From: Duncaniella freteri | GTDB taxonomy: Bacteria > Bacteroidota > Bacteroidia > Bacteroidales > Muribaculaceae | DNA length: 64,000 nt | NCBI RefSeq assembly: GCF_004766125.1 | Contig: NZ_SJSA01000002.1 | Location: 496,001 to 560,000 of the forward strand | Direction: 5' to 3' | Part shown: in pieces, positions 39,053 through 49,402 of the stretch | How positions within the stretch are numbered: position 1 is the stretch's first letter | How the letters are laid out: each line of letters opens with the position of its first letter | Made by a program: the position numbers and the translations under genes | The notes under the pieces: model-generated | Told to the model about the DNA's origin: nothing | Databases searched by the model: none | The model's input: only the letters and a program-made list of their open reading frames with translations

Positions 39053-39122
39053 TGCAAATCAAGCCTTTATAAAATGGGCATAGTTGTGTACGATAAGGAA
39101 TGTATTTGACAGATAATGTGAG

Positions 39123-40036
39123 GTCATCTTGACTTATTTTAAACATACAAAATACAGTAAGGAGTGTTAAGTGTAATGAGAAAAAACACACCTAAACACT
39201 CCTTGAATTGATAGAACTCATAGATAAAGACACCATAAGAATGGAAATCCTGCCGTATCTGACAACCGCCAAACGAGGCTACACATGCAAGGGAGACCTT
39301 TGCGAGGTCATCCAGTGCATATTGTACAAGCTCAAGACAGGCTGCCAATGGCACATGATTCCCACTATGGCGATATTCACCGAAGTAGTCCTCCATTATA
39401 AAACAATCTTTGGGAAGTTTCGGCAGTGGTGCAAGGACGGTTCGTGGCAAAAAAGTTGGGAATCGCTGCTTGGACGCAATCGCGACATGATAGACCTCTC
39501 CAGTGCCGACCTTGACGGCAGCCATACCGTGGCACGACGCGGAGGAGAGGAAGTAGGTGGAGCAGCGCATAAAGTGGCTCAGACCACCAATGTCATATTT
39601 ATTACTGACCGCCAGGGCATTCCGGTGGCTATGTCTGAGCCAAAATCCGGCAAGCACCATGATGTTCATGAGATTGGAACGTCGCTTGACCAGATTTTTG
39701 GCATGATGGATAACGCAGGAATTTCCATTGACGGCCTTTTCCTCAATGCCGATGCCGGATTTGACTGTCACGATTTCAGAAGAAAATGTGACAGTGCCGG
39801 AGTCATTGCTAATGTAGATTTCAACAATCATACCAAAAACGATGAGAAATATCTTTTGGACAGAAAACTCCTGTCTCTCAGATATAGCATTGAGAGGACA
39901 AATGCCTGGATGGACTCTTTCCGATCCGTGCTCAATCGTTTCGACAAAACGGTTTCCAGCTGGAAAGGGTGGAATCTCCTGGCATTCCATGTGATATTTC
40001 TTAAACACATTAACAGACTCAAAAAGTCAAGATGAC
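39123..40036 (+). mobile_element. IS5-type insertion sequence (914 bp)
   Basis: GTCATCTTGACTT at 39123 and its reverse complement at 40024-40036 are the terminal repeats. A 10-bp hairpin AAGGAGTGTT/AACACTCCTT between the left end and the transposase gene could block incoming transcription or translation. The right end lies in the 3' end of the Imm5 gene. Confidence 0.85.
39208..40035 (+). CDS. IS5 family transposase
   Basis: The 275-residue single-frame DDE transposase has ADLDGSHT (Asp), LFLNADAGFDCHDFR (Asp) and YSIERTNAWMDSFRSVLNRFD (Glu). The N-terminal part (YTCKGDLCEVIQCILYKLKTGCQW) is the DUF4096-like DNA-binding region. The stop codon lies within the right terminal repeat. It starts right after the internal hairpin. 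Confidence 0.9.
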   Translation: MIELIDKDTIRMEILPYLTTAKRGYTCKGDLCEVIQCILYKLKTGCQWHMIPTMAIFTEVVLHYKTIFGKFRQWCKDGSWQKSWESLLGRNRDMIDLSSADLDGSHTVARRGGEEVGGAAHKVAQTTNVIFITDRQGIPVAMSEPKSGKHHDVHEIGTSLDQIFGMMDNAGISIDGLFLNADAGFDCHDFRRKCDSAGVIANVDFNNHTKNDEKYLLDRKLLSLRYSIERTNAWMDSFRSVLNRFDKTVSSWKGWNLLAFHVIFLKHINRLKKSR

Positions 40037-40654
40037 TTCTGTTGCTTTGTTTGCGAAAGCAAGATATGGCAGTCTGTCATTCGCACAAGCAGTTTCGATG
40101 CAATCGGTAAGATACCAGCTCCAAAACTCTTTATTGCGTTCGTCATCAATAAAACCTAAATCAACAATACCGTCATTATATACTAAACTTGCAAGGAATG
40201 CCGGATCCCATTCGTCCGGGTTTTCCACTTCTTCATCGGAATCGTAATCACTAATAACCATGTCTTCATCTGAACTGGCATCATAGGCTGCATGAACAGC
40301 TACCTTGGCAGCAAACGAGGCTGTTATATCATCTTCCATGTAATAATCAGCAAACATGTCTAAATGGTCGGCATCTTTCAACAAATCCTTTTTACTCGTT
40401 TGTCCAAGCAGATATTTCTCCGTTTTTGTAATCAGTCCGATTATATCAGTATCATCCCTGAAAAGGTCATTCCATATCGGATATACTTTCAATGCGCATA
40501 AAATACTTATTCTTCCAATGATACAGGGTTCATTGATAGCTTGTAGAATCTTACGTCTTGTTGATAAGGACAGATGCCCTGCACTTGAATGGTTGACTTC
40601 ATCCAAGCCCTTTCTTATCAATGACTTTATGGCTTCGCTGTATTTCATGCGCAC
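40019..40654 (-). CDS. Imm5-like immunity protein, C-terminus replaced by IS sequence
   Basis: The 211-residue protein resembles Imm5 immunity proteins: an R-x-I-L-Q motif near residue 35, central helices with KVYPIWNDLF, acidic insert (SDYDSDEEVENPDEWDP) and FWSWYLTDCIETA. Its last codons (EVILTF and stop) come from the terminal repeat of the IS5-type element, so the native C-terminus is lost. It is the most distal cassette of the array, preceded by an attC-like site at 40664. Imm5 proteins protect against polymorphic toxins of neighbours; whether the truncated form works is unknown. Confidence 0.65.
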   Translation of the reverse strand: MRMKYSEAIKSLIRKGLDEVNHSSAGHLSLSTRRKILQAINEPCIIGRISILCALKVYPIWNDLFRDDTDIIGLITKTEKYLLGQTSKKDLLKDADHLDMFADYYMEDDITASFAAKVAVHAAYDASSDEDMVISDYDSDEEVENPDEWDPAFLASLVYNDGIVDLGFIDDERNKEFWSWYLTDCIETACANDRLPYLAFANKATEVILTF

Positions 40655-40663
40655 TAATTGTTT

Positions 40664-40714
40664 CTAATGGGATGCAGCTTGCCGCCGTTATAGGCGGCAC
40701 AGGTGCTTGTTAGC
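40664..40714 (-). repeat. attC-like site 1
   Basis: On the gene strand it runs from GCTAACAAG to CCCATTAG. The stem GCCGCC-TATAAC-GGCGGC is extended by GCA/TGC and CT/AG with an extra base on one side. It shares sequence with sites 7 and 8. Confidence 0.75.
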
Positions 40715-40723
40715 ATCGTTCTT

Positions 40724-41074
40724 TTAATCCAATTCAGCATGGGAGAATAAGTCCATTATTAATTTTTTATTTTCACATGCTTCTTTAAACTGTAAGATGA
40801 ACTTTCTTAAAGCCTCTTTATCACTTGAATAAGCACAGAACATACTTCCTTCCGAATCGAAGTCAATGCTTTCGGATAGCTCTGGTGCTTGTTCGTCAAT
40901 AAAGACACGAGCCAGTGACTCCCAGTCGTAGCCATTACCTTCAAATCCTTCATCTTCTCTTGATTGAAAGATTTCCGTTTTATACTCGCCAACAGTCAGA
41001 CATACCGAAATTGTTGATTCATGTTCAACCCAAAAGAAAGGTTCAATAGCCGCTGCAAAATTATTAATGTCCAT
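40724..41074 (-). CDS. Imm51 family immunity protein
   Basis: The 116-residue protein has the Imm51 pattern: IEPFFWVEHESTISVCL near the start, DEGFEGNGYDWESLARVFI in the middle, and FDSEGSMFCAYSSDKEAL before a C-terminal helix. Imm51 proteins neutralise toxins delivered by neighbouring cells. It overlaps the upstream gene by 11 bases and both lie between the same pair of attC-like sites, so they form one two-gene cassette. Confidence 0.8.
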   Translation of the reverse strand: MDINNFAAAIEPFFWVEHESTISVCLTVGEYKTEIFQSREDEGFEGNGYDWESLARVFIDEQAPELSESIDFDSEGSMFCAYSSDKEALRKFILQFKEACENKKLIMDLFSHAELD

Positions 41075-41411
41075 ATTGTTCTAATTCTTTAAAAAGTTCA
41101 TCACCATTTGCTTTAATTCCATTTCTAAACTTGGCAGGAATTCTACTGCTACAACGTTCAAACCAATCGTTAAAAACATTTTTCCATTCTTGAACTTTCT
41201 CTTTTTTAATTAACAGATTAGCATCAATGGGGTATTTCTTTGCCAGTATTACCAGCATATCAATAATTGCCAATATTGGCTGAGAAGGCTCTTTGGTTGT
41301 TTTCATCCAATCAATAAATTCATCCATCATTGAAATGGAGAATTTTATATAATCAACTCCAACAGCTTCTGCAAGTTCATTTCCTTCTGGTGCTGTACTA
41401 AATATCTTCAT
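41064..41411 (-). CDS. Unknown small protein, partner of Imm51 in one cassette
   Basis: The 115-residue soluble helical protein has no recognised family. It has Trp-rich helices (FIDWMKTTKEPSQPILAIIDMLVILAKKYP and WKNVFNDWFERC). It overlaps the Imm51 gene by 11 bases with no site between, so they move and act together if the site logic is right. A second immunity factor is the simplest guess. Confidence 0.6.
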   Translation of the reverse strand: MKIFSTAPEGNELAEAVGVDYIKFSISMMDEFIDWMKTTKEPSQPILAIIDMLVILAKKYPIDANLLIKKEKVQEWKNVFNDWFERCSSRIPAKFRNGIKANGDELFKELEQYGH

Positions 41412-41436
41412 ATTATATTTTTCTTATTCTTCGATG

Positions 41437-41487
41437 CTAATGGTTGGCGAATAACTGACCGTTAGGGCAGTTCATTCGCTTGTTAGT
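41437..41487 (-). repeat. attC-like site 2
   Basis: On the gene strand CTAACAAG begins it and CCATTAG ends it. The stem GCGAAT-G-AACTG pairs with CAGTT-ATTCGC perfectly apart from a single bulged G. The core overlaps the last codons of the upstream gene. Confidence 0.75.
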
Positions 41488-41771
41488 AGCGTTTTAAGAG
41501 TTATAGCTTGTTCAGTTGTATTCTCTCGTTCTAATTCAGAACAATAGAAGCGTGGATGATTAATTCCTTGTTTATAACAATCATTGGCTAAATCATCCAG
41601 TTTTTGAATCGCACTATCAAACCATCCATACTCTTCTTCACTGATAAGATAATATCGTTCATACCAAAACCAATGGCAGATAGTGACTGTCATTATGTAT
41701 TGTTTAACTAATGGATTGAATCCGACTGAATAGAACCCATCATTTCTTATCTTTTCTTTTATTAATTTCAT
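41472..41771 (-). CDS. Unknown small cassette protein (99 aa)
   Basis: No family recognised. The protein has aromatic-rich centre ICHWFWYERYYLISEEEYGWF and a CysSer segment YCSELERENTT. Its final residues LLTSE and stop are encoded by the attC-like site 2 itself (CTACTAACAAGCGAATGA). It lies alone between sites 2 and 3, as a single-gene cassette of probable immunity function. Confidence 0.6.
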   Translation of the reverse strand: MKLIKEKIRNDGFYSVGFNPLVKQYIMTVTICHWFWYERYYLISEEEYGWFDSAIQKLDDLANDCYKQGINHPRFYCSELERENTTEQAITLKTLLTSE

Positions 41772-41788
41772 TGTCTCATTTTTCGCTA

Positions 41789-41834
41789 CTAATGGTTAGC
41801 AGGGAACGGCTTGCCGTTACCCTGCTTCGTTAAC
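41789..41834 (-). repeat. attC-like site 3
   Basis: On the gene strand it reads from GTTAACGAAG to CCATTAG. GCAGGG-T-AACGG pairs with CCGTT-CCCTGC with a single bulged T. It is related to site 6. Confidence 0.75.
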
Positions 41835-41849
41835 ATCATATTGTACGCA

Positions 41850-42242
41850 TTATTCAGCTTCGTTTGGGTTACCGACCAGTCTTTTCTCTACGACCCGAAC
41901 AAGCTGATATTTGTATATGCTACCGTCTGCTGGTGGATTTGCCAAAGTTGTCTTATTGACACGCAAATCGTATTCATAGCCTTTCTCATATTCGAAGCCC
42001 TGAATACCGCAGAATGCCAAAGGACGATATTCATCCTCTCCCTGCTCCTTGACGAGCATACATTCTATCGGAAATTCTCCTTCCGAATCAAATAAATCAT
42101 ACATAATTCCAGTTTCAGAAGAAACATACATCGTTACTTCTTTTGTGATGTCCTTTGGCTCATCTTCATTCATGCAAGCTGTCAGTCCCAATATGGTAAC
42201 AAAGGCTATCAGCAGCGTTCTTAAATAAATTTTCGTTCTCAT
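41850..42242 (-). CDS. DUF4377 lipoprotein cassette
   Basis: The 130-residue protein has a lipoprotein signal ending ILGLTAC and a DUF4377 domain: EVTMYVSSETGIM, ECMLVKEQGEDEYRPL, IQGFEYEKGYEYDLRV and NPPADGSIYKYQLV. It is exported and membrane-anchored, so if it is an immunity factor it would act on toxins that reach the periplasm. It sits between sites 3 and 4 as a single cassette. Confidence 0.75.
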   Translation of the reverse strand: MRTKIYLRTLLIAFVTILGLTACMNEDEPKDITKEVTMYVSSETGIMYDLFDSEGEFPIECMLVKEQGEDEYRPLAFCGIQGFEYEKGYEYDLRVNKTTLANPPADGSIYKYQLVRVVEKRLVGNPNEAE

Positions 42243-42262
42243 ACTTATTAGTGTTATTGATG

Positions 42263-42313
42263 TTAATGGGTTGGTGAGGAACAGCGTTTAGCTGTTATCT
42301 CGACCTTGTTAGT
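42263..42313 (-). repeat. attC-like site 4
   Basis: On the gene strand it runs CTAACAAGG to CCCATTAA. The stem GGT-C-GAG-AT-AACAGC pairs with GCTGTT-C-CTC-ACC: a bulged C and an AT/C internal loop. Its 47-bp core is identical to site 9. Confidence 0.75.
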
Positions 42314-42325
42314 TGTTTACTATAT

Positions 42326-43090
42326 TTACTTAATGATTTCAATGTCTTGAATAGGTATATAACCTATAGGAGCATTAAAAATGGAATTTATTCGGCACCA
42401 GCCATTTGTTAATTTGCTTATAACAACAGGCATTCCAAATTTGACTGCTATGCCATCTTCGCCTTTGATAGTTTTTTCTCCATTAGGTAAAGAATAAATG
42501 TAAGAACTGCATAGTATGGCACTATCTCCAACTTGTGGCGTAAAATTCGTCCTTTTAGCATTTGGAAGGCTCTGTAATATTATATTATATTGAGCTTCTA
42601 TACATTTTGTGGATAAGAATAGGTATGTTTCAAAACAATTCTTACATTCGTTTTCATCAGGAAAATGCTCTATGTGAAAACCCGAAGCGTCAGCATACAA
42701 CTTTCCGTGAGTTTCATCACCTTTATTATATGCTCCATATATCAATCGCCCATTAGAATTATAATATGCGATACTATGCAATGCACCCCCGTCAGCCCAT
42801 CGCTTAAATACTTTTCTTATTTTGTTATCTCTATCGAAATACATAGTGAACAATACATTCGCATTCTTTATTTGACCATCATCTAAGATTTTGTACGAAT
42901 GAACTTGATTAAATTCCATATATTCATTATTTATCACCTCTCCCAAACTATCCAAAGGCACAAGGTATGCAATCCACAAAGGCATTTCGTTTATTGCATC
43001 AATCTCTGTTTGAATAGTTGCCTTACAGCTTTGTGCGAAAGTATAAGGTGAAAGCAAGCATAAAATATAAAGTATTATTATCGTTCTCAT
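42326..43090 (-). CDS. Secreted cassette protein with SH3-like C-terminus
   Basis: The start at 43090 (MRTIIILYILCLLSPYTFAQ) gives a signal peptide; the longer frame runs back into attC-like site 5. The 254-residue product is exported. The C-terminal ~60 residues (VGDSAILCSS, IAVKFGMPVVISKLTNGWCRI) look like a bacterial SH3 fold. No exact family is recognised. As a single-gene cassette it may guard against wall- or periplasm-acting toxins. Confidence 0.65.
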   Translation of the reverse strand: MRTIIILYILCLLSPYTFAQSCKATIQTEIDAINEMPLWIAYLVPLDSLGEVINNEYMEFNQVHSYKILDDGQIKNANVLFTMYFDRDNKIRKVFKRWADGGALHSIAYYNSNGRLIYGAYNKGDETHGKLYADASGFHIEHFPDENECKNCFETYLFLSTKCIEAQYNIILQSLPNAKRTNFTPQVGDSAILCSSYIYSLPNGEKTIKGEDGIAVKFGMPVVISKLTNGWCRINSIFNAPIGYIPIQDIEIIK

Positions 43091-43097
43091 ATTACAA

Positions 43098-43145
43098 CTA
43101 ATGGGATAGCGGGGAACGCCGTTAGGCGTTATCACGCTTTGTTAG
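43098..43145 (-). repeat. attC-like site 5
   Basis: On the gene strand CTAACAAAG starts it and CCCATTAG ends it. The stem AACGCC-TAAC-GGCGTT is extended by a partly mismatched GCG/CGC with the AT/C loop. Its core contains the stop codon of the upstream gene. Confidence 0.75.
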
Positions 43146-43512
43146 TCACGTTATTATTCTTGCTTATAAATTCATAACAGTCATCCAAAGCATATCGGGC
43201 TAAAGCACTTTCTATCCATTTCTCATAACTATCAAGAAGCTTTTCGCATTCGGGATGTGTAAGCCAATACGTTTCACCATATAGAGCAAGCATTGCCCAA
43301 TGATAAATGTTTTCGTGAGAAAAGAAAACAACATCATCAGTTGTGCTTATTGGCTGTTGTAAAGGATGAAAGTCTTTAACCAGTTGCAGTGCATTCTCTA
43401 TGGTAGTATTTCCATATATAGATATGCACTCTTTCAATAGTTCGCAAAACACTTTGAAATGAAAGATGATTTTAACATCTTCATCCTCTGTTACTATAAT
43501 GTCTTTGTTCAT
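43132..43512 (-). CDS. Unknown cassette protein (126 aa)
   Basis: No family recognised. The protein is acidic and helical (VTEDEDVKIIFHFKVFCELLKE; FFSHENIYHWAMLALYGETYWLTHPECEKLL). It has no signal peptide. Its final residues VTNKA and stop are encoded by attC-like site 5. It is a single-gene cassette between sites 5 and 6, of probable immunity function by context only. Confidence 0.55.
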   Translation of the reverse strand: MNKDIIVTEDEDVKIIFHFKVFCELLKECISIYGNTTIENALQLVKDFHPLQQPISTTDDVVFFSHENIYHWAMLALYGETYWLTHPECEKLLDSYEKWIESALARYALDDCYEFISKNNNVTNKA

Positions 43513-43546
43513 GCTGTTATCATTTATAAGTTATCGCAAGTTGTGA

Positions 43547-43594
43547 CTAATGGGATAGCAGGGAACGGCTTGTCCGTTATCCTGCGTTGTTAGC
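43547..43594 (-). repeat. attC-like site 6
   Basis: On the gene strand it runs GCTAACAACG to CCCATTAG. GCAGG-AT-AACGG pairs with CCGTT-C-CCTGC, with the same AT/C internal loop as sites 4 and 9. Confidence 0.75.
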
Positions 43595-43604
43595 TGTATT
43601 TTAG

Positions 43605-44330
43605 TCAAAAGTCATGTAACACAAACAGACTTTTAACAAGATAATTTTCTACTGTCCATACGGCATAATATCCGCCTGCACCGTCACTGTTCTGCGTGCT
43701 GATGAACAGTGAGTTTCCTTTACCCAATGCCACGACAACATTGTTTCGGCTCGGTTCGTATAGATGTGTTATGTATGCTGTTGGAAATTCCAATATTCCG
43801 GCAGGGTGCTTGACGGTGACAGATGCGTATTCTTCATGCGGAATATTATCATCTATGCCTGTCAAGTCAGAACAACCGTCAATACTCCGAACAAAGCCTG
43901 CTTCCAAATCATAAACAATGGCATGTTTTTGTGGATTAAACTTTTGGAAGATTATCTTTATGGTTAATGTGTCGTTGGCATATACAAGGCATTTATCTGT
44001 GCTTTGCGGCTGTTTCTTCAACTGTGGCAAATCTGCCAAATAACGGATGCGGCTTTTATGGATTTCTCCTGTATGGGTATTTCCATTCGGGCAAGTCTTG
44101 GTTATGCCCGTTTCTGCTCCATATTCTACGCTATGCCATTCTTTATGGCTCTTTTGTGCATCCCAATCGACAAACACATGATTATCCAATAATTTGCCTA
44201 TTACTGTTCCACTTGTATCACGTACATTTACATATCCGTCCGCATCCTGAATGACACCGAAGAAAGGCTGTTGTGCTTGTATAGGCAAGCAAAACAGAAT
44301 TGCCGATATGTAGAAAATAATCTTTTTCAT
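43605..44330 (-). CDS. Secreted SH3-domain cassette protein (241 aa)
   Basis: A signal peptide (MKKIIFYISAILFCLPIQAQ) is followed by an SH3-like segment (DGYVNVRDTSGTVIGKLLDNHVF) and a beta-rich ~140-residue domain. This is the standard form of exported SH3 proteins. Between sites 6 and 7 as a single cassette. An immunity role against periplasmic effectors is inferred. Confidence 0.65.
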   Translation of the reverse strand: MKKIIFYISAILFCLPIQAQQPFFGVIQDADGYVNVRDTSGTVIGKLLDNHVFVDWDAQKSHKEWHSVEYGAETGITKTCPNGNTHTGEIHKSRIRYLADLPQLKKQPQSTDKCLVYANDTLTIKIIFQKFNPQKHAIVYDLEAGFVRSIDGCSDLTGIDDNIPHEEYASVTVKHPAGILEFPTAYITHLYEPSRNNVVVALGKGNSLFISTQNSDGAGGYYAVWTVENYLVKSLFVLHDF

Positions 44331-44343
44331 GCTTCTATTACAG

Positions 44344-44393
44344 CTAATGGGATGCAGCTTGCCGCCGTTTAGGCGGAATAGGTGCTCGTTAAC
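44344..44393 (-). repeat. attC-like site 7
   Basis: On the gene strand it runs GTTAACGAGC to CCCATTAG, with the CCGCC/GGCGG stem of the site 1 family. Confidence 0.7.
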
Positions 44394-44400
44394 AACATCG

Positions 44401-44892
44401 TTAGTAAATACTTACTAAAACTCCAGTTTGGGAGTTTAATGCGTTTTCGTAAAAGGCTTTCAAATTCAGAAACTCTTTTTTCAATTCCGCTTTTAGTTGT
44501 TTTTCATCTTTTTTCACCCAGATATTTGGATATATTTTAGCTTTTCTAAACTTGGATAAATCCATACTTTCTATAAGAACCTCTATATCTGCCTTGTTTA
44601 GTGCATCAACAATGTCCTTAATATGATTAGGGTATGTATATGCTATAAAATCTTCACAGTCGAAAATTTTAGTGCCTACAATGGCTTCACTTAAAGGATC
44701 ATTTTCAATTGTTTCTTGTGCGGACACTCCAGTTAGTAAGAAATGAAGCCCATCCCATAACTTATCAATATCATAGGCAATAGTTGTTGACTCATCTCCA
44801 TATTCTTCAACAGCTTCAAATAAATCTTCATCATTTGAAAGCCTTTCTATTGTTGCTTCATCAGCCAACATGTAAACTCCTAACATTCCCAT
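44401..44892 (-). CDS. DUF1877 (YfbM) family cassette protein
   Basis: The start is the Met at 44892 (MGMLGVYMLADEATIERL); the longer frame runs through attC-like site 8. The 163-residue protein has the DUF1877 pattern: LSNDED, AYDIDKLWDGLHFLLTG, an acidic middle, IYPNIWVKKDE and a C-terminal helix FYENALNS. DUF1877 proteins often occur in immunity arrays. Single cassette between sites 7 and 8. Confidence 0.8.
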   Translation of the reverse strand: MGMLGVYMLADEATIERLSNDEDLFEAVEEYGDESTTIAYDIDKLWDGLHFLLTGVSAQETIENDPLSEAIVGTKIFDCEDFIAYTYPNHIKDIVDALNKADIEVLIESMDLSKFRKAKIYPNIWVKKDEKQLKAELKKEFLNLKAFYENALNSQTGVLVSIY

Positions 44893-44904
44893 AATTCTTT
44901 TGTT

Positions 44905-44952
44905 GTTAATGGTTTGCAGCTTGCCGCCGTAGGCGGAACAGGTGCTTGTTAT
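44905..44952 (-). repeat. attC-like site 8
   Basis: This has the site 1 family stem (GCCGCC/GGCGG) with a shorter loop; the right core is AATAACAAG and the left core CCATTAAC. Confidence 0.7.
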
Positions 44953-44959
44953 TCGCATA

Positions 44960-45586
44960 TTATTCAGGTCGCCAATATGGATGTAATGCCGTTTCAATAT
45001 TAAACTTTGGAATATTAAATTCATTTATCCATTCAAGGCGAGTCCAAACGCCAGAGTTTTCACCAACCATAAGCATCTTTTCATTACAAAAAACAGCTTC
45101 CATTTCATAAGGACGATGACCAATTTCAAAGTTCATTACAATGAATCTAACTGGTGCTTTATCTTGTAACGGCACAACAACCGAACTGCATTTTAAGGTG
45201 GATTTTGCCATTTTTCCTAATGGTCTTTCACTATGCTTAATGACTTCAACAGAGCGTTTGACATTTCTTGAAATTACTATTGGCTTATATATTGGACCAT
45301 ACTCCAGTTCTACATCATTGGGCAGAGCATCCATTTTATCTGCCAATTTTATAAGACCATTCATTATCATTTCTTTCATATCCATTGGATTTACATTGCA
45401 AAATTCCGTCCATGCAGTAAGCTGTTTGTCGGTAGGAAAACTCTCGCCATCCATATCAAACCACACATCGAAGTTCCCGCCCAAAGAATTGATATGGATA
45501 GGGGATTTGGCGGCATATAGCCCCAAATCATCAACTCGCCAAAGCGAGCAATCAAGATTTGATATGTAGTTTTCTTCTTTCTCCAT
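44960..45586 (-). CDS. Unknown cassette protein (208 aa)
   Basis: No family recognised with confidence. The protein is soluble and mixed alpha/beta, with FDVWFDMDGESFPTDKQLTAW near residue 40 and RPYEMEAVFCNEKMLMVGENSGVWTRLEW near the end, reminiscent of DUF2004/DUF6985-like proteins found near toxin loci. It lies between sites 8 and 9 as a single cassette. Probable immunity role by context. Confidence 0.55.
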   Translation of the reverse strand: MEKEENYISNLDCSLWRVDDLGLYAAKSPIHINSLGGNFDVWFDMDGESFPTDKQLTAWTEFCNVNPMDMKEMIMNGLIKLADKMDALPNDVELEYGPIYKPIVISRNVKRSVEVIKHSERPLGKMAKSTLKCSSVVVPLQDKAPVRFIVMNFEIGHRPYEMEAVFCNEKMLMVGENSGVWTRLEWINEFNIPKFNIETALHPYWRPE

Positions 45587-45598
45587 TTGCTATTGCGA

Positions 45599-45649
45599 AT
45601 AATGGGTTGGTGAGGAACAGCGTTTAGCTGTTATCTCGACCTTGTTATA
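45599..45649 (-). repeat. attC-like site 9
   Basis: This site is identical to site 4 across 47 bp although 3.3 kb apart. The upstream gene ends inside it (AGCTTATAA). Confidence 0.75.
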
Positions 45650-46301
45650 AGCTAAATTTTTCTGTTACTATATTCCTTATCATTTTAGCATCTGTGCTAT
45701 TCAGCCTATAAATGCTGCATAGTTTACTAAGAGCTTGCTGTATCTCTGCATCCGTTATCCCTAAGTTGAACATAATACCTAAAGGAAGAAACCAAGAGTT
45801 AGGAATTTGCTCATCCTCAATCGTTACTTTTGGGATATGGTTTTCTGCATCATTTTCACAACTCAATACACACCCTCTGTCTTCTTCTTGTAGATTTCCG
45901 ATAGCATCTAATTCGGCACAATAGAAACGCTTTTCTTGGCTACTCTCATAATAGCCATAAGCGTAACGATATTCCCATAAATCTATCGAGAAGTAATAGA
46001 CACCACATTTTGCCGAAAGCCTTTTACCCAATGTTTCGTAAATATATCGTAAACATTTTCCTTCAATGATATAATATCCGTTAATGACAGGCGAAATCAA
46101 TATCTTATCAACCCTCGGTAAAAGGTCATTAAGATAATTGTCTGCATTTTCATAAGTAGTACAAAGTATAGAGTTGGTATCCCACTGCTCATTATCAGAC
46201 AAAAGGGTTAGCCCCAATATGTCTGCAACATCTTTTCTAACGGATGCAGGTATTAGGAGCCAATCAGCACAGCTAAAATGTTCTTGTACTTGTTCGTTCA
46301 T
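45645..46301 (-). CDS. Unknown cassette protein (218 aa), first of the array
   Basis: No family recognised. It is soluble, with CADWLLIPASVRKDVADILGL near the start and an aromatic-rich stretch (YYFSIDLWEYRYAYGYYESS) in the middle. Its stop codon lies in attC-like site 9. It is the cassette nearest the recombinase side; its upstream boundary (46302-46390) does not show the standard site. Confidence 0.55.
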   Translation of the reverse strand: MNEQVQEHFSCADWLLIPASVRKDVADILGLTLLSDNEQWDTNSILCTTYENADNYLNDLLPRVDKILISPVINGYYIIEGKCLRYIYETLGKRLSAKCGVYYFSIDLWEYRYAYGYYESSQEKRFYCAELDAIGNLQEEDRGCVLSCENDAENHIPKVTIEDEQIPNSWFLPLGIMFNLGITDAEIQQALSKLCSIYRLNSTDAKMIRNIVTEKFSL

Positions 46302-46390
46302 AATTTGGTGTACTATTGCTTATAATGTATTTATAAGATCACCTATAGGTGTTGTTTGTTTTGGTAAACGACACCCGACAGGTGTGTTTC
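46302..46390 (-). other. Atypical palindromic spacer at the head of the array
   Basis: It holds CACCTATAGGTG, a perfect 12-bp palindrome, and ACACC-TGTC-GGGTGT, but lacks the CTAACAAG and CCATTAG cores of the other spacers. It may be the array head site (the attI counterpart) or simply the end of the BatD gene. Confidence 0.45.
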
Positions 46391-47764
46391 CTAATCTCTA
46401 ATAGCTGCACTCTGTGTCAGTGCGTCCCTTATTCTTCGAACATTCCGTTTGGCATAACCGAACGAGAATGGCGAAGTACGCTTGTTCAGGTCATTCACAC
46501 TGTTGACCCATACCTGTCCTTTGTCGAACACGATGAAAATCTGCTCTCCCCATGTCAGATGCCAGATGGCGGGATTGGTATGCGCCACGATGCAGTCCTC
46601 ACCGTAATGATCAACATCCCAGTCATAAGTTGCCGCCAGATTATATATCCTGTCGTAAATCGCCTGCTCGTCCAGCGTGGTCGGTATGCTTTGGAAATCC
46701 AGCTTGCGCCGCTGGTGGCGATATGACAGATAAGCAAGCGGCACAAACGCAATACCGAGCCAGAAAAAGACAGACATGAACAGACTGTCTGTATAGATCG
46801 CAACTCCCGTTGTGGCAAGAAACAGCACGGAAAAAAGCAATAGCGTGTGCGATACGCCATAATGGGTATACGCCCAGCTTACAGTCAGAGGCAGAGCCTT
46901 CTTTTCCAACACGAATTCGGCAAGAAGGGCATCCTTATCCTCTCGGTAGCGACGTCTGCAAGCAAGCCACCATGCCAACTCGAACAATGCGCCTGTAACC
47001 ACGATGGCAATAAGGAAGTCCGCACCGGCTAATTTGCCTTTTTTCGGTTTGACGGAATATGGTTTGCCACCAAAGGTCAGCTCCTCGCAGGACACCTCAT
47101 AACTGTCATCGTTAAAGAAATACTCGTAAACGTATTCTTCCTTGCCGTTGGAAATTGAAAAGGACTTGCGGGTAGGTCGGAATATTTTCCCGTTGATGGA
47201 CAGCAGTGGCGGGTTCTGGTCGGGACAGGCATTGCAGGTCAGCGTGGCACAGTATTTTGCGTAACCGCCGGCCATACGTTCCACCTTCAAACTGCATTTC
47301 AGTTTGTTCATATCCACTACGGCAGGATGTACGGTTACACGGCATTCCGGGGTGGTATATGTCCGGTTGCCTGCCTTTACGGATGCGGAAGGGAGTTCGA
47401 CCTCTCCGCTCTGTCTGAACTGCACAATATAACTGAATCCGCTTTCACGGCTCTTTCTTCCCACTCCGTTTATAATGGCGTAGCTACTGCCTTCATGTGA
47501 CTTCGGACCTTCTATCACTTCAATGCTGCTGTTGAATACCGGAGGAGAAACCGAATCGAATTGTGCATTGACCAGCGCATACGTCAGTTCCACCACTTGT
47601 CCCGCACGGATCTCCCGCATCGTGTCAGCCTTTATGTGGAAATACACAGAGTCTGCTGTAGTCGAAGCGTACACCCGAACTACCGACAACAATGCGGATA
47701 TCAATATACAGTAGATTTGCATACTACTGACTGGCGGTCTTGTTATGTTGCCTTTATTTTTCAT
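46391..47764 (-). CDS. BatD-like membrane protein between recombinase and array
   Basis: The 457-residue protein has a signal or first helix (MQIYCILISALLSVVRVYA; start possibly 47722), a BatD-like Ig domain (REIRAGQVVELTYALVNA, SSIEVIEGPKSHEGSS), a helix near residue 255 (FLIAIVVTGALFELAWWLAC), two further helices near 315-355 and a cytosolic C-terminal domain (WDVDHYGEDCIVAHTNPAIWHL). BatD is linked to aerotolerance operons, but no Bat partners are here. Its place behind the recombinase suggests that it belongs to the locus. Confidence 0.7.
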   Translation of the reverse strand: MKNKGNITRPPVSSMQIYCILISALLSVVRVYASTTADSVYFHIKADTMREIRAGQVVELTYALVNAQFDSVSPPVFNSSIEVIEGPKSHEGSSYAIINGVGRKSRESGFSYIVQFRQSGEVELPSASVKAGNRTYTTPECRVTVHPAVVDMNKLKCSLKVERMAGGYAKYCATLTCNACPDQNPPLLSINGKIFRPTRKSFSISNGKEEYVYEYFFNDDSYEVSCEELTFGGKPYSVKPKKGKLAGADFLIAIVVTGALFELAWWLACRRRYREDKDALLAEFVLEKKALPLTVSWAYTHYGVSHTLLLFSVLFLATTGVAIYTDSLFMSVFFWLGIAFVPLAYLSYRHQRRKLDFQSIPTTLDEQAIYDRIYNLAATYDWDVDHYGEDCIVAHTNPAIWHLTWGEQIFIVFDKGQVWVNSVNDLNKRTSPFSFGYAKRNVRRIRDALTQSAAIRD

Positions 47765-47793
47765 TTCCGGTTCTGCAATTTAACAGTTGCACA

Positions 47794-48892
47794 TTATGTG
47801 TTATCCAATGAATCAAGCGGATTCGGTATGCTCGACTTGTGGGCACTTGTAACATGAAGGTAGATGCTCGTAGTCTTGATGTCGTTGTGTCCCAAAAGCT
47901 CCTGTATGGTTCTCAGGTCCGTACCCTGCTCCAGTAAATGGGTGGCGAAAGAGTGCCGCAGCATGTGTACGTGTACCCGGTGCTTGATGCCGGCTCGATC
48001 GGCGGCTTCCTTCAACACTTTCACCAATGCACTTGCCGAATATTGCTCTCCGGGTGTTTCGCCCTCGAACAGCCATTTTTGCGGGCGATATTCCTTGAAA
48101 TATTCCCGAAGTTCGCACAATACCTTCTCCGACAGCAGCGAGTAGCGGCATTTTTTGCCCTTGCCCATAATGCGAATCAGCATACGTTCGCTCATAATAT
48201 CCTGCGGAGTGAGGTTAAGCAACTCGCTCCTTCTCAATCCTGCGGAATAAATCAACGAAATCATACAGCGATGCTTGCGGTTTGCAAGGCATGAAAGAAT
48301 GCGCCGCACCTCGTTGCGGCTCAACACTTCGGGCAGGCTCTTGTACTCTTTGGCACGGGTGATGCCACCGTAGTATTGCCGTTTGCCGCCTTTCACCTGC
48401 TCGTAGTAGAACTTGATGGCGTTGATGCGCATATTCTGTTGCGACACCGAGATTTTCTTCTCGTTCACAAGATAGAGTATGTACTTGTTGATGTCCGGCA
48501 CTTTCAGACGGTCGATGTTACGCCCCTTGTGATATTCCATGAAGTCGCTGAAATAAGCCTTGTAGGTCTTGACGGTCGAAGGGCTGTAACGCTTCTGTTC
48601 CAGCAGTTCAAGATAGCCTTTCGGCAGCACATATTCCCGTTTTGGCTTGGGATGGCGTACATATACACGGCTGTAGTCAATATAGGCGTGCGGAGAATAG
48701 CGGTCATAGAAGGCGGAAAACGGTGGCTGGAATGTAGCCGGAGCCGTCCACGACCGCAGCCACGTCGGTGTCCTGTGCCAGCAGCAGGGTTATGGCTTGG
48801 CTGTCCGTGTAGTCCACCCGGATGCACTCCTCACCGTTGTACCTGTCTTTATGCAGGACGATGCTGCCACGTTGTTTTAGTATCTTATCCAT
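47794..48892 (-). pseudogene. XerD-type tyrosine recombinase of the immunity array, with a 5' frameshift
   Basis: The 278-residue downstream frame (from a GTG at 48630) holds a full SAM-like and catalytic domain with all active residues: SAGLRRSELL (Arg), GKGKKCR (Lys), HMLRHSFATH (His-x-x-Arg), LLGHNDI (His) and SIYLHV (Tyr). Upstream the same frame stays open through FSAFYDRYSPHAYIDY. A separate 62-residue frame from the ATG at 48892, just behind a good promoter, gives the missing N-terminus (MDKILKQRGSIVLHKDRYNG) but stops at 48704. One extra base near 48712-48720 (GTTTTCC) explains the break. The core could still be made from the GTG. Confidence 0.8.
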
Positions 48893-49009: not shown

Positions 49010-49402
49010 TTAACATTTCAGGCTTTTAAGACTTTGGACTGCCATTTTATAGTTCTTGGCATTGCGGTCGTGACCGCTGTTGATCATGCGGTCAATATGG
49101 AGTTTGGCATAGTCAGTGAAACTTGCGTCACTCTCCTGAGTCTGGAGAAATGAAATGACCTCCTTGACACTCCATAATGAGGTGTCCTGAAGATTTAGAC
49201 GACGATTGTACTCGGATATGAGCTGGGTGCAATAGCGCAGGACTTCATTGTCACGAATTTCTTTAGTCTTGGAGACCGCTGAAGGTTCTACAATCTTGTC
49301 GGTTTTGATATACCCGGGTTTCCTGTTTTGGATTACCCAGATATAGACTGGATAGAATCCGTCTGAGCGTTGCTTCTGAACGCATGGTCTTAGGGTTGCC
49401 AT
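49010..49402 (-). pseudogene. N-terminal remnant of a Bacteroidetes integrase
   Basis: The 130-residue frame (MATLRPCVQKQRSDGFYPVYIWV, then GYIKTDKIVEP, EYNRRLNLQDTSLWSVKEVISFL and FTDYAKLHIDRMINSGHDRNAKNY) is the arm-binding and SAM-like N-terminus of tyrosine integrases that are about 400 residues long. The catalytic domain is missing, so the gene is dead as an integrase. It probably belonged to the element that brought the island now ending here. Confidence 0.8.

Follow-up and report, generated by a model that had tools for sequence, protein, structure and literature searches.

Loci of recombinase-associated acquired interbacterial defence (rAID) were reportedly described in Bacteroidales by Ross and colleagues in 2019. 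Integrons, the other system of interest here, exchange their cassettes at a core with the consensus G/TT (G/TTRRRY; the slash marks the exchange point), and most of them do not have the recombinase and the cassettes in the same direction, as the locus presented here does. Known features of rAID include a tyrosine recombinase, co-oriented short genes of low GC content, conserved intergenic motifs and immunity proteins (PMC12247911). The available part of that paper describes the way in which rAID loci arise as a subject of active research, and it mentions the motif without giving cassette boundaries, a head site or an exchange point; the words 'integron' and 'attC' occur nowhere in its main text. 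In the sites of integrons, same-strand pairing of the R arms spans 9-11 bases for the majority of cassettes, according to the accessible sections of PMC2727003. Immunity gene arrays of type VI secretion system (T6SS) clusters in Vibrio cholerae, compared here from the start of the abstract of PMC5361080, also carry several immunity genes in a row; the text of that paper holds the word integron nine times. The locus in question occupies positions 48892 to 40019 on the minus strand of a 64,000-nucleotide stretch (the window; contig NZ_SJSA01000002.1, positions 496,001 to 560,000) from Duncaniella freteri. It is a rAID array, and with a probability of roughly 0.8 it works as an integron-type cassette platform. 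rAID would work like an integron but is not one by current definition, because its recombinase is without the IntI-specific domain.

Locus layout and cassette boundaries

From 48892 down to 40019, the locus holds in order the recombinase, a 457-amino-acid (aa) BatD-like gene and eleven small genes of 99-254 aa, all on the minus strand (span 40019-46301). GC content is 0.371 in the array (0.319-0.408 in each of the eleven genes), compared with 0.452 in the window and 0.497 in the recombinase platform. Pfam names four of the eleven genes (DUF1877, DUF4377, Imm51 and Imm5), and none of the remaining seven reaches the cut-off of any Pfam family. Structured sites of the form TAAC...CCATTA lie in nine spacers of the array. 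One spacer has no site because the overlapping genes 41064-41411 and 40724-41074 form one cassette, and the last gene (Imm5) has none downstream because an IS5-family element interrupts the array there. The initial annotation had described these eleven genes, with the same four families, and short constant-ended sites between almost all genes or gene pairs, and both descriptions are borne out. Its assignment to rAID is supported by related recombinases upstream (74-99% identical in loci L039-L074, with the reference B. fragilis protein outside the comparison), by the short low-GC genes and by the conserved intergenic motif, and Imm5, Imm51, Tdi1, PoNi and SUKH occur in the cassette pool. That a recombinase heads the array holds in part: a XerD/IntI-like enzyme does lie upstream, but the BatD-like gene intervenes and the recombinase is not one open frame. 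The BatD-like platform gene and this frame break are additions of the window locus to the described rAID plan.

Sites were collected with a covariance model (R1) built from 53 sites, the sources being the window and 36 gut Bacteroidales loci with a related recombinase (37 in all). The model found 241 sites in 33 sources, among them 32 of the 36 loci, and none in L039, L056, L057 or L071. The sites reveal a rule at cassette boundaries: a cassette opens, after ...CCA/TTA, with 5-6 further bases reverse-complementary to those just before TAAC in its own downstream site. All nine cassettes with a site in the window obey, the first one being read against the head site. With a match defined as four or more bases beyond TTA, the rule holds in 178 of 208 adjacent site pairs across the 33 sources (132 of 155 distinct). 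Shuffled partners average 7.7 matches and never exceed 19 (1000 shuffles), and a match between both arms of a single integrated site is seen in just 3 of 241. When one cassette per family is counted, 106 of 120 obey (shuffled mean 4.4, largest 12; 2000 shuffles). The array of the congener G588, which was outside model building, obeys at 8 of 10 boundaries; one of its failures is a stretch of 2.8 kb that may conceal a missed site, and the other is 505 bases long.

In this reading a cassette is one gene (or overlapping pair) with its own downstream site. In a free circular cassette both ends would meet and form a complete site, made up of a cassette-specific outer stem (8-9 bp), a spacer without pairing and an imperfect inner stem. 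The recombinase, probably the linked one, would join the cassette at A/TTA to the head site or to the site of another cassette; the stored cassettes would be expressed serially from upstream. On the evidence of sequence, own-end complementarity is the same rule as in integron cassettes, with attC-like sites of paired R and L boxes whose R''/R' arms are complementary within the cassette, over 8-9 nucleotides here and 9-11 there (PMC2727003, as far as available). Folding of the circular forms finds the bottom strand more stable in 155 of 179 and the top strand in 19, and together with own-end complementarity this suggests that a folded single (bottom) strand is exchanged. An unlikely alternative, though the most serious one, is that the recombinase acts on double-stranded sites in the manner of Xer or phage integrases, the hairpin being a trace of paired half-sites. 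A duplex reader needs no cassette-specific outer arm complementary over 8-9 bp to the cassette's own other end, and the bias towards the bottom strand also argues against it.

Exchange point and head site

The exchange point was located by comparing 234 cassettes. Of the pairs they form, 149 are at least 85% identical over the first 60 bases beyond TTA, and 118 of those have a far-left context (-200 to -60) that is less than 50% identical. On the cassette side of the 118 pairs, identity is 1.0 at +1 to +7 and 0.86-1.0 up to +40, and on the left side it is 1.0, 0.86, 0.68, 0.49 and 0.86 at -1 to -5 and 0.21-0.69 at -6 to -40; the pairs are not independent of one another, and likeness was the criterion by which the cassette side, but not the left side near the cut, had been chosen. 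All 53 aligned sites end in ATTA, which departs from the G/TTRRRY core of integrons, and the cut is set within A/TTA by analogy with integrons because A and TTA do not vary. In 23 junction pairs a head site is compared with an array site, with almost nothing in common left of the cut beyond the last bases, which by comparison shows precise exchange between head and array. These pairs also weigh against homologous recombination between near-identical sites, with the recombinase as a bystander. Such shuffling is possible because some site cores are identical between cassettes, and it would fit the damaged recombinases of the window's lineage described below, but homology leaves own-end complementarity unexplained as well, and this reading is improbable.

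The boundary rule locates the head site in 28 of 33 sources. As the rule was itself used to find this site, the independent evidence for it consists of the conserved bases before the cut and the end of platform identity. About 85 bases before the cut are conserved in the window's kin, and other platforms have a shorter form with one CACC...GGTG repeat. Identity of the window to L039, L040, L074 and G588 (L149) ends at 46323, the final base of TTA; platforms up to that point are 97.7% (L039) and 98.1% (G588, of the same genus) identical to the window's, while the cassettes of G588 differ from those of the window except for cassette 7, present there twice. Different cassettes stand behind one platform. 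The BatD-like gene is matched only in near relatives (L039, L149 and partly L040 and L074) and is absent from L010/L052, where the head site directly follows the recombinase. By comparison, then, a putative attI-like site lies next to the recombinase gene, as in integrons. Further likenesses are the cassette of gene and own site, the imperfect inner stem and the unpaired spacer; the differences are the missing IntI-specific domain, the A/TTA core, sites of 43-50 nucleotides and immunity-rich cargo. The integron-like character proposed in the initial annotation is therefore upheld in finer detail (own-end complementarity, exchange point, head site) than it was first drawn.

The 234 cassettes fall into 129 families, of which 53 occur in two or more sources. 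Their own sites mostly travel with the genes, median site identity being 0.96 within a family (204 pairs, 75% above 0.9) and 0.58 between families. Complete window cassettes are found elsewhere in five of nine cases (cassettes 1, 4, 5 and 6, and cassette 7 in G588 and G589). None of the neighbouring pairs of window cassettes recurs as neighbours in the other 32 sources, although cassette order is partly common among relatives (wholly in L064/L065, in part in L062, L072, L059 and L061). Conserved order combined with freely varying spacers, which the initial annotation had named as the sign of an ordinary operon, was not found in this comparison. Co-oriented small genes with hairpin spacers would fit an operon whose spacers are terminators, attenuators or repetitive extragenic palindrome (REP)-like elements, but the scattered neighbourhoods, a boundary rule that has no role in an operon and a scan of the gene strand with no terminator-like match at any of the nine window sites make this very improbable.

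The intergenic sites

A loose site pattern matches the window 14 times, nine times within the array, and shuffles of the whole window give a mean of 4.1 and at most 10. The nine window sites are 43-48 bases long and have E values of 4e-6 to 6e-11 under the covariance model, which was partly built from these same sites. Site strand equals recombinase strand in 241 of 241. No further sites were found in the whole genome (G000) beyond the nine, with 150 of 668 first-look candidates scored, and the model found none at E<=1 in 44 more distant loci. Three cassette sites lie upstream of the recombinase in L053 (5301-8385), perhaps a second array.

The inner stem covaries. In 94 distinct rows of an alignment fitted to the tested structure, which favours that structure, 89.4% of cells are paired (70.7% after shuffling), double-change cells number 108 (26.8 shuffled) and the covariation score is 0.446 (0.146 shuffled). 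In slid controls the paired share drops to 30-54%. The seven inner-stem pairs were first predicted on an unfitted MAFFT alignment, where each has at least one double change.

The recombinase

The recombinase of most relatives is a single open frame of about 368 aa. TIGR02249, the IntI profile, matches that of the window in two stretches only (8-180 and 239-315), leaving positions 181-238 unmatched, for a total of 199 bits against a cut-off of 265. The IntI-specific domain is absent in the alignment too, so that of the two domains expected of an integron integrase PF00589 is present and the additional one is missing; the clade lies outside IntI. XerD and XerC scores are far under their cut-offs (187 bits vs 329.6 and 183.6 vs 335.15). 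The best structural matches are XerA (4a8e, 5hxy), and the fold and the domain plan without the IntI insert are those of XerA, XerC and XerD, but the recombinase differs from these in its N-terminal extension and in adjoining a cassette array. A true IntI elsewhere in the cell might drive the array in trans, since IntI is present in the phylum (84 of 296 genomes above the cut-off), but none reaches the cut-off in G000 and, across 295 genomes of the order, just 5 carry one, which makes this explanation hardly credible.

Similarity of the window to L040, L074 and G588 stops at 49029-49030 in every case, which looks like the border of a larger unit, and a 130-aa piece (49010-49402) that weakly matches an integrase arm domain begins at that border. 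Many relatives of the recombinase seem to lie close to the ends of their contigs, which would be expected if arrays rich in repeats break assemblies.

Evidence against an integron-type platform

Several observations weigh against the reading of the locus as an integron-type platform. Excision and insertion of cassettes are deduced from comparison of sequences, and with A, T, T and A invariant around the cut, sequence cannot fix its exact position. The boundary rule fails in 30 of 208 adjacent pairs and in 14 of 120 families, with long gaps in some of the failures only. Of five covariation measures, two fail to rise above the shuffles (6 of 7 pairs having a double change vs 5.3; 12 further pair types vs 13.4), and an Rfam search of the sites returned no matching family at E<=1. 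The cargo pool also has transposase, TPR and LRR families, and its counts per family give no total of immunity-labelled proteins among the 128 scanned. Finally, the recombinase of the window carries a frame break, the copy in the congener G588 seems to be split by about 2.6 kb, and an internal deletion affects the one in L074. Because these three copies are damaged, recombinase activity in this lineage is doubtful, and because its own frame is broken the array may now be fixed in this genome; the recombinases of L039 and L040 are one open frame, unlike the three damaged copies in near relatives.

Cassettes and cargo

The features of the locus are collected in Table 1. Cargo was scanned against Pfam with a single representative protein for each of the 128 cassette families (of 129) that have an open reading frame of at least 60 aa. 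Among the 25 listed of 46 Pfam families, with counts that may overlap, the commonest named ones are immunity families, T6SS immunity families among them: PoNi (5), Imm-NTF2 (4), Tdi1 (4), Imm5 (3) and SUKH-1 (3), followed by Imm51, Imm22, Imm43, Imm11 and DUF1877 (2 each) and Imm68 (1). These domain families suggest that the stored genes are probably to a large extent immunity proteins neutralizing the toxins of neighbours, and the seven unnamed window genes are, by association, candidate immunity genes. Searches with the proteins of cassettes 2, 4 and 6 gave unnamed metagenomic relatives (29, 52 and 33 proteins), a few distant ones of which have an SH3 domain in the case of cassette 4. Three metagenomic relatives of the cassette 6 protein (P0092, P0093 and P0100) are fused to ankyrin repeats. 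The predicted structure of one unnamed window protein had no clear structural match.

Table 1. Positions of the recombinase platform, cassettes and putative recombination sites in the window
Feature	Position	Strand	Remarks
Recombinase, N-terminal extension	48704-48892	-	Out of frame with remainder (frame break)
Tyrosine recombinase, SAM-like and catalytic domains	47794-48630	-	278 aa from GTG; PF00589 and SAM-like Pfam matches
BatD-like membrane protein gene	46391-47764	-	457 aa; PF13584, E 1.8e-11; platform accessory gene in this lineage
attI-like head site (putative)	46326-46410	-	Bears two short inverted repeats; exchange at 46326/46325 (A/TTA), give or take a few bases
Cassette 1	45603-46325	-	218-aa gene 45645-46301, family unnamed; mid-array in Bacteroides caecigallinarum L073
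attC-like site, cassette 1	45600-45647	-	60.4 bits (covariance model)
Cassette 2	44910-45602	-	208-aa gene 44960-45586, family unnamed
attC-like site, cassette 2	44907-44951	-	47.3 bits
Cassette 3	44348-44909	-	DUF1877 gene 44401-44892
attC-like site, cassette 3	44345-44391	-	49.4 bits
Cassette 4	43551-44347	-	Gene 43605-44330, probably secreted; also in Parabacteroides gordonii L045
attC-like site, cassette 4	43548-43592	-	46.9 bits
Cassette 5	43102-43550	-	126-aa gene 43132-43512, unnamed; first at head site in Bacteroides finegoldii L060
attC-like site, cassette 5	43099-43144	-	59.6 bits
Cassette 6	42267-43101	-	254-aa gene 42326-43090, probably secreted; also in L043, L048, L073
attC-like site, cassette 6	42264-42311	-	60.4 bits; core identical to that of cassette 1
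Cassette 7	41793-42266	-	DUF4377 lipoprotein-like gene 41850-42242; twice in G588 (L149), once in G589 (L150)
attC-like site, cassette 7	41790-41832	-	39.9 bits
Cassette 8	41441-41792	-	99-aa gene 41472-41771, unnamed
attC-like site, cassette 8	41438-41485	-	42.8 bits
Cassette 9	40668-41440	-	Two genes, 41064-41411 (unnamed) and 40724-41074 (Imm51)
attC-like site, cassette 9	40665-40712	-	49.2 bits
Cassette 10, truncated	40040-40667	-	Imm5 gene 40019-40654; own site lost to IS5-family element
IS5-family element	39120-40039		19-nucleotide inverted ends 39120-39138 and 40021-40039; holds last codons and stop of Imm5 gene

Related arrays in other Bacteroidota

Eight repeat-bearing loci among the 44 distant ones were inspected (the repeat-rich L091 not among them); repeated sites lie downstream of the recombinase in four of these (L095, L099, L102 and L117). 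Their recombinases are 45-48% identical to that of the window and likewise without the IntI-specific domain. With a G/TT core, the boundary rule holds over 7-9 bases at 4 of 4 boundaries in L099, 3 of 3 in L102 and 3 of 3 in L117, the last count excluding three inner motif hits that do not mark the end of a site; in L095, where the G/TT core occurs too, it holds at 1 of 3. Because the loci were picked for having repeats, these counts give no rate, and at one boundary each in L099 and L102 the match within a single integrated site is about equally good (9 and 7 bases), because the arms of neighbours are alike. In the Cytophagales array of L117 (14139-19688), two cassettes encode ATPases matching the AbiLi and AriA profiles, one of them with a 244-aa partner without a family. 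The Flavobacteriales array of L095 (12350-16076) has short sites, a 277-aa Xer-like recombinase and esterase-like and histidine-phosphatase-like cargo. It is tentatively proposed, at somewhat less than even odds, that rAID is a branch of a Bacteroidota-wide class of integrons with Xer-like recombinases without the IntI domain, whose cassettes are read as folded strands and which arose beside IntI or from a state before its domain gain. Its cargo would be immunity genes in gut Bacteroidales and other genes, including phage-defence-like ATPases, in relatives. If so, the domain held necessary for integron activity would not be needed for cassette exchange as such.

Significance

What the comparison may add to knowledge of rAID is a mechanism, comprising the own-end rule, the exchange point and the head site. 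A literature search covering mostly listings and partial texts, with Ross et al. 2019 outside it, found no account of a rAID boundary rule, head site or missing IntI domain. With boundaries, head site and exchange point in hand, rAID biogenesis becomes directly testable. In the accessible part of PMC4792948, a Xer-like ancestor is imagined to have gained the extra domain on the way to integrons; rAID recombinases look like a cassette system without that domain, which bears on the origin of integrons. IntegronFinder requires the IntI domain, according to the available text of PMC9668308, and is therefore not expected to recognize the rAID integrase, so this share of gene capture may have gone uncounted. 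For the ecology of the gut, an integron-type rAID platform would explain how resistance to toxins can be collected one gene at a time.

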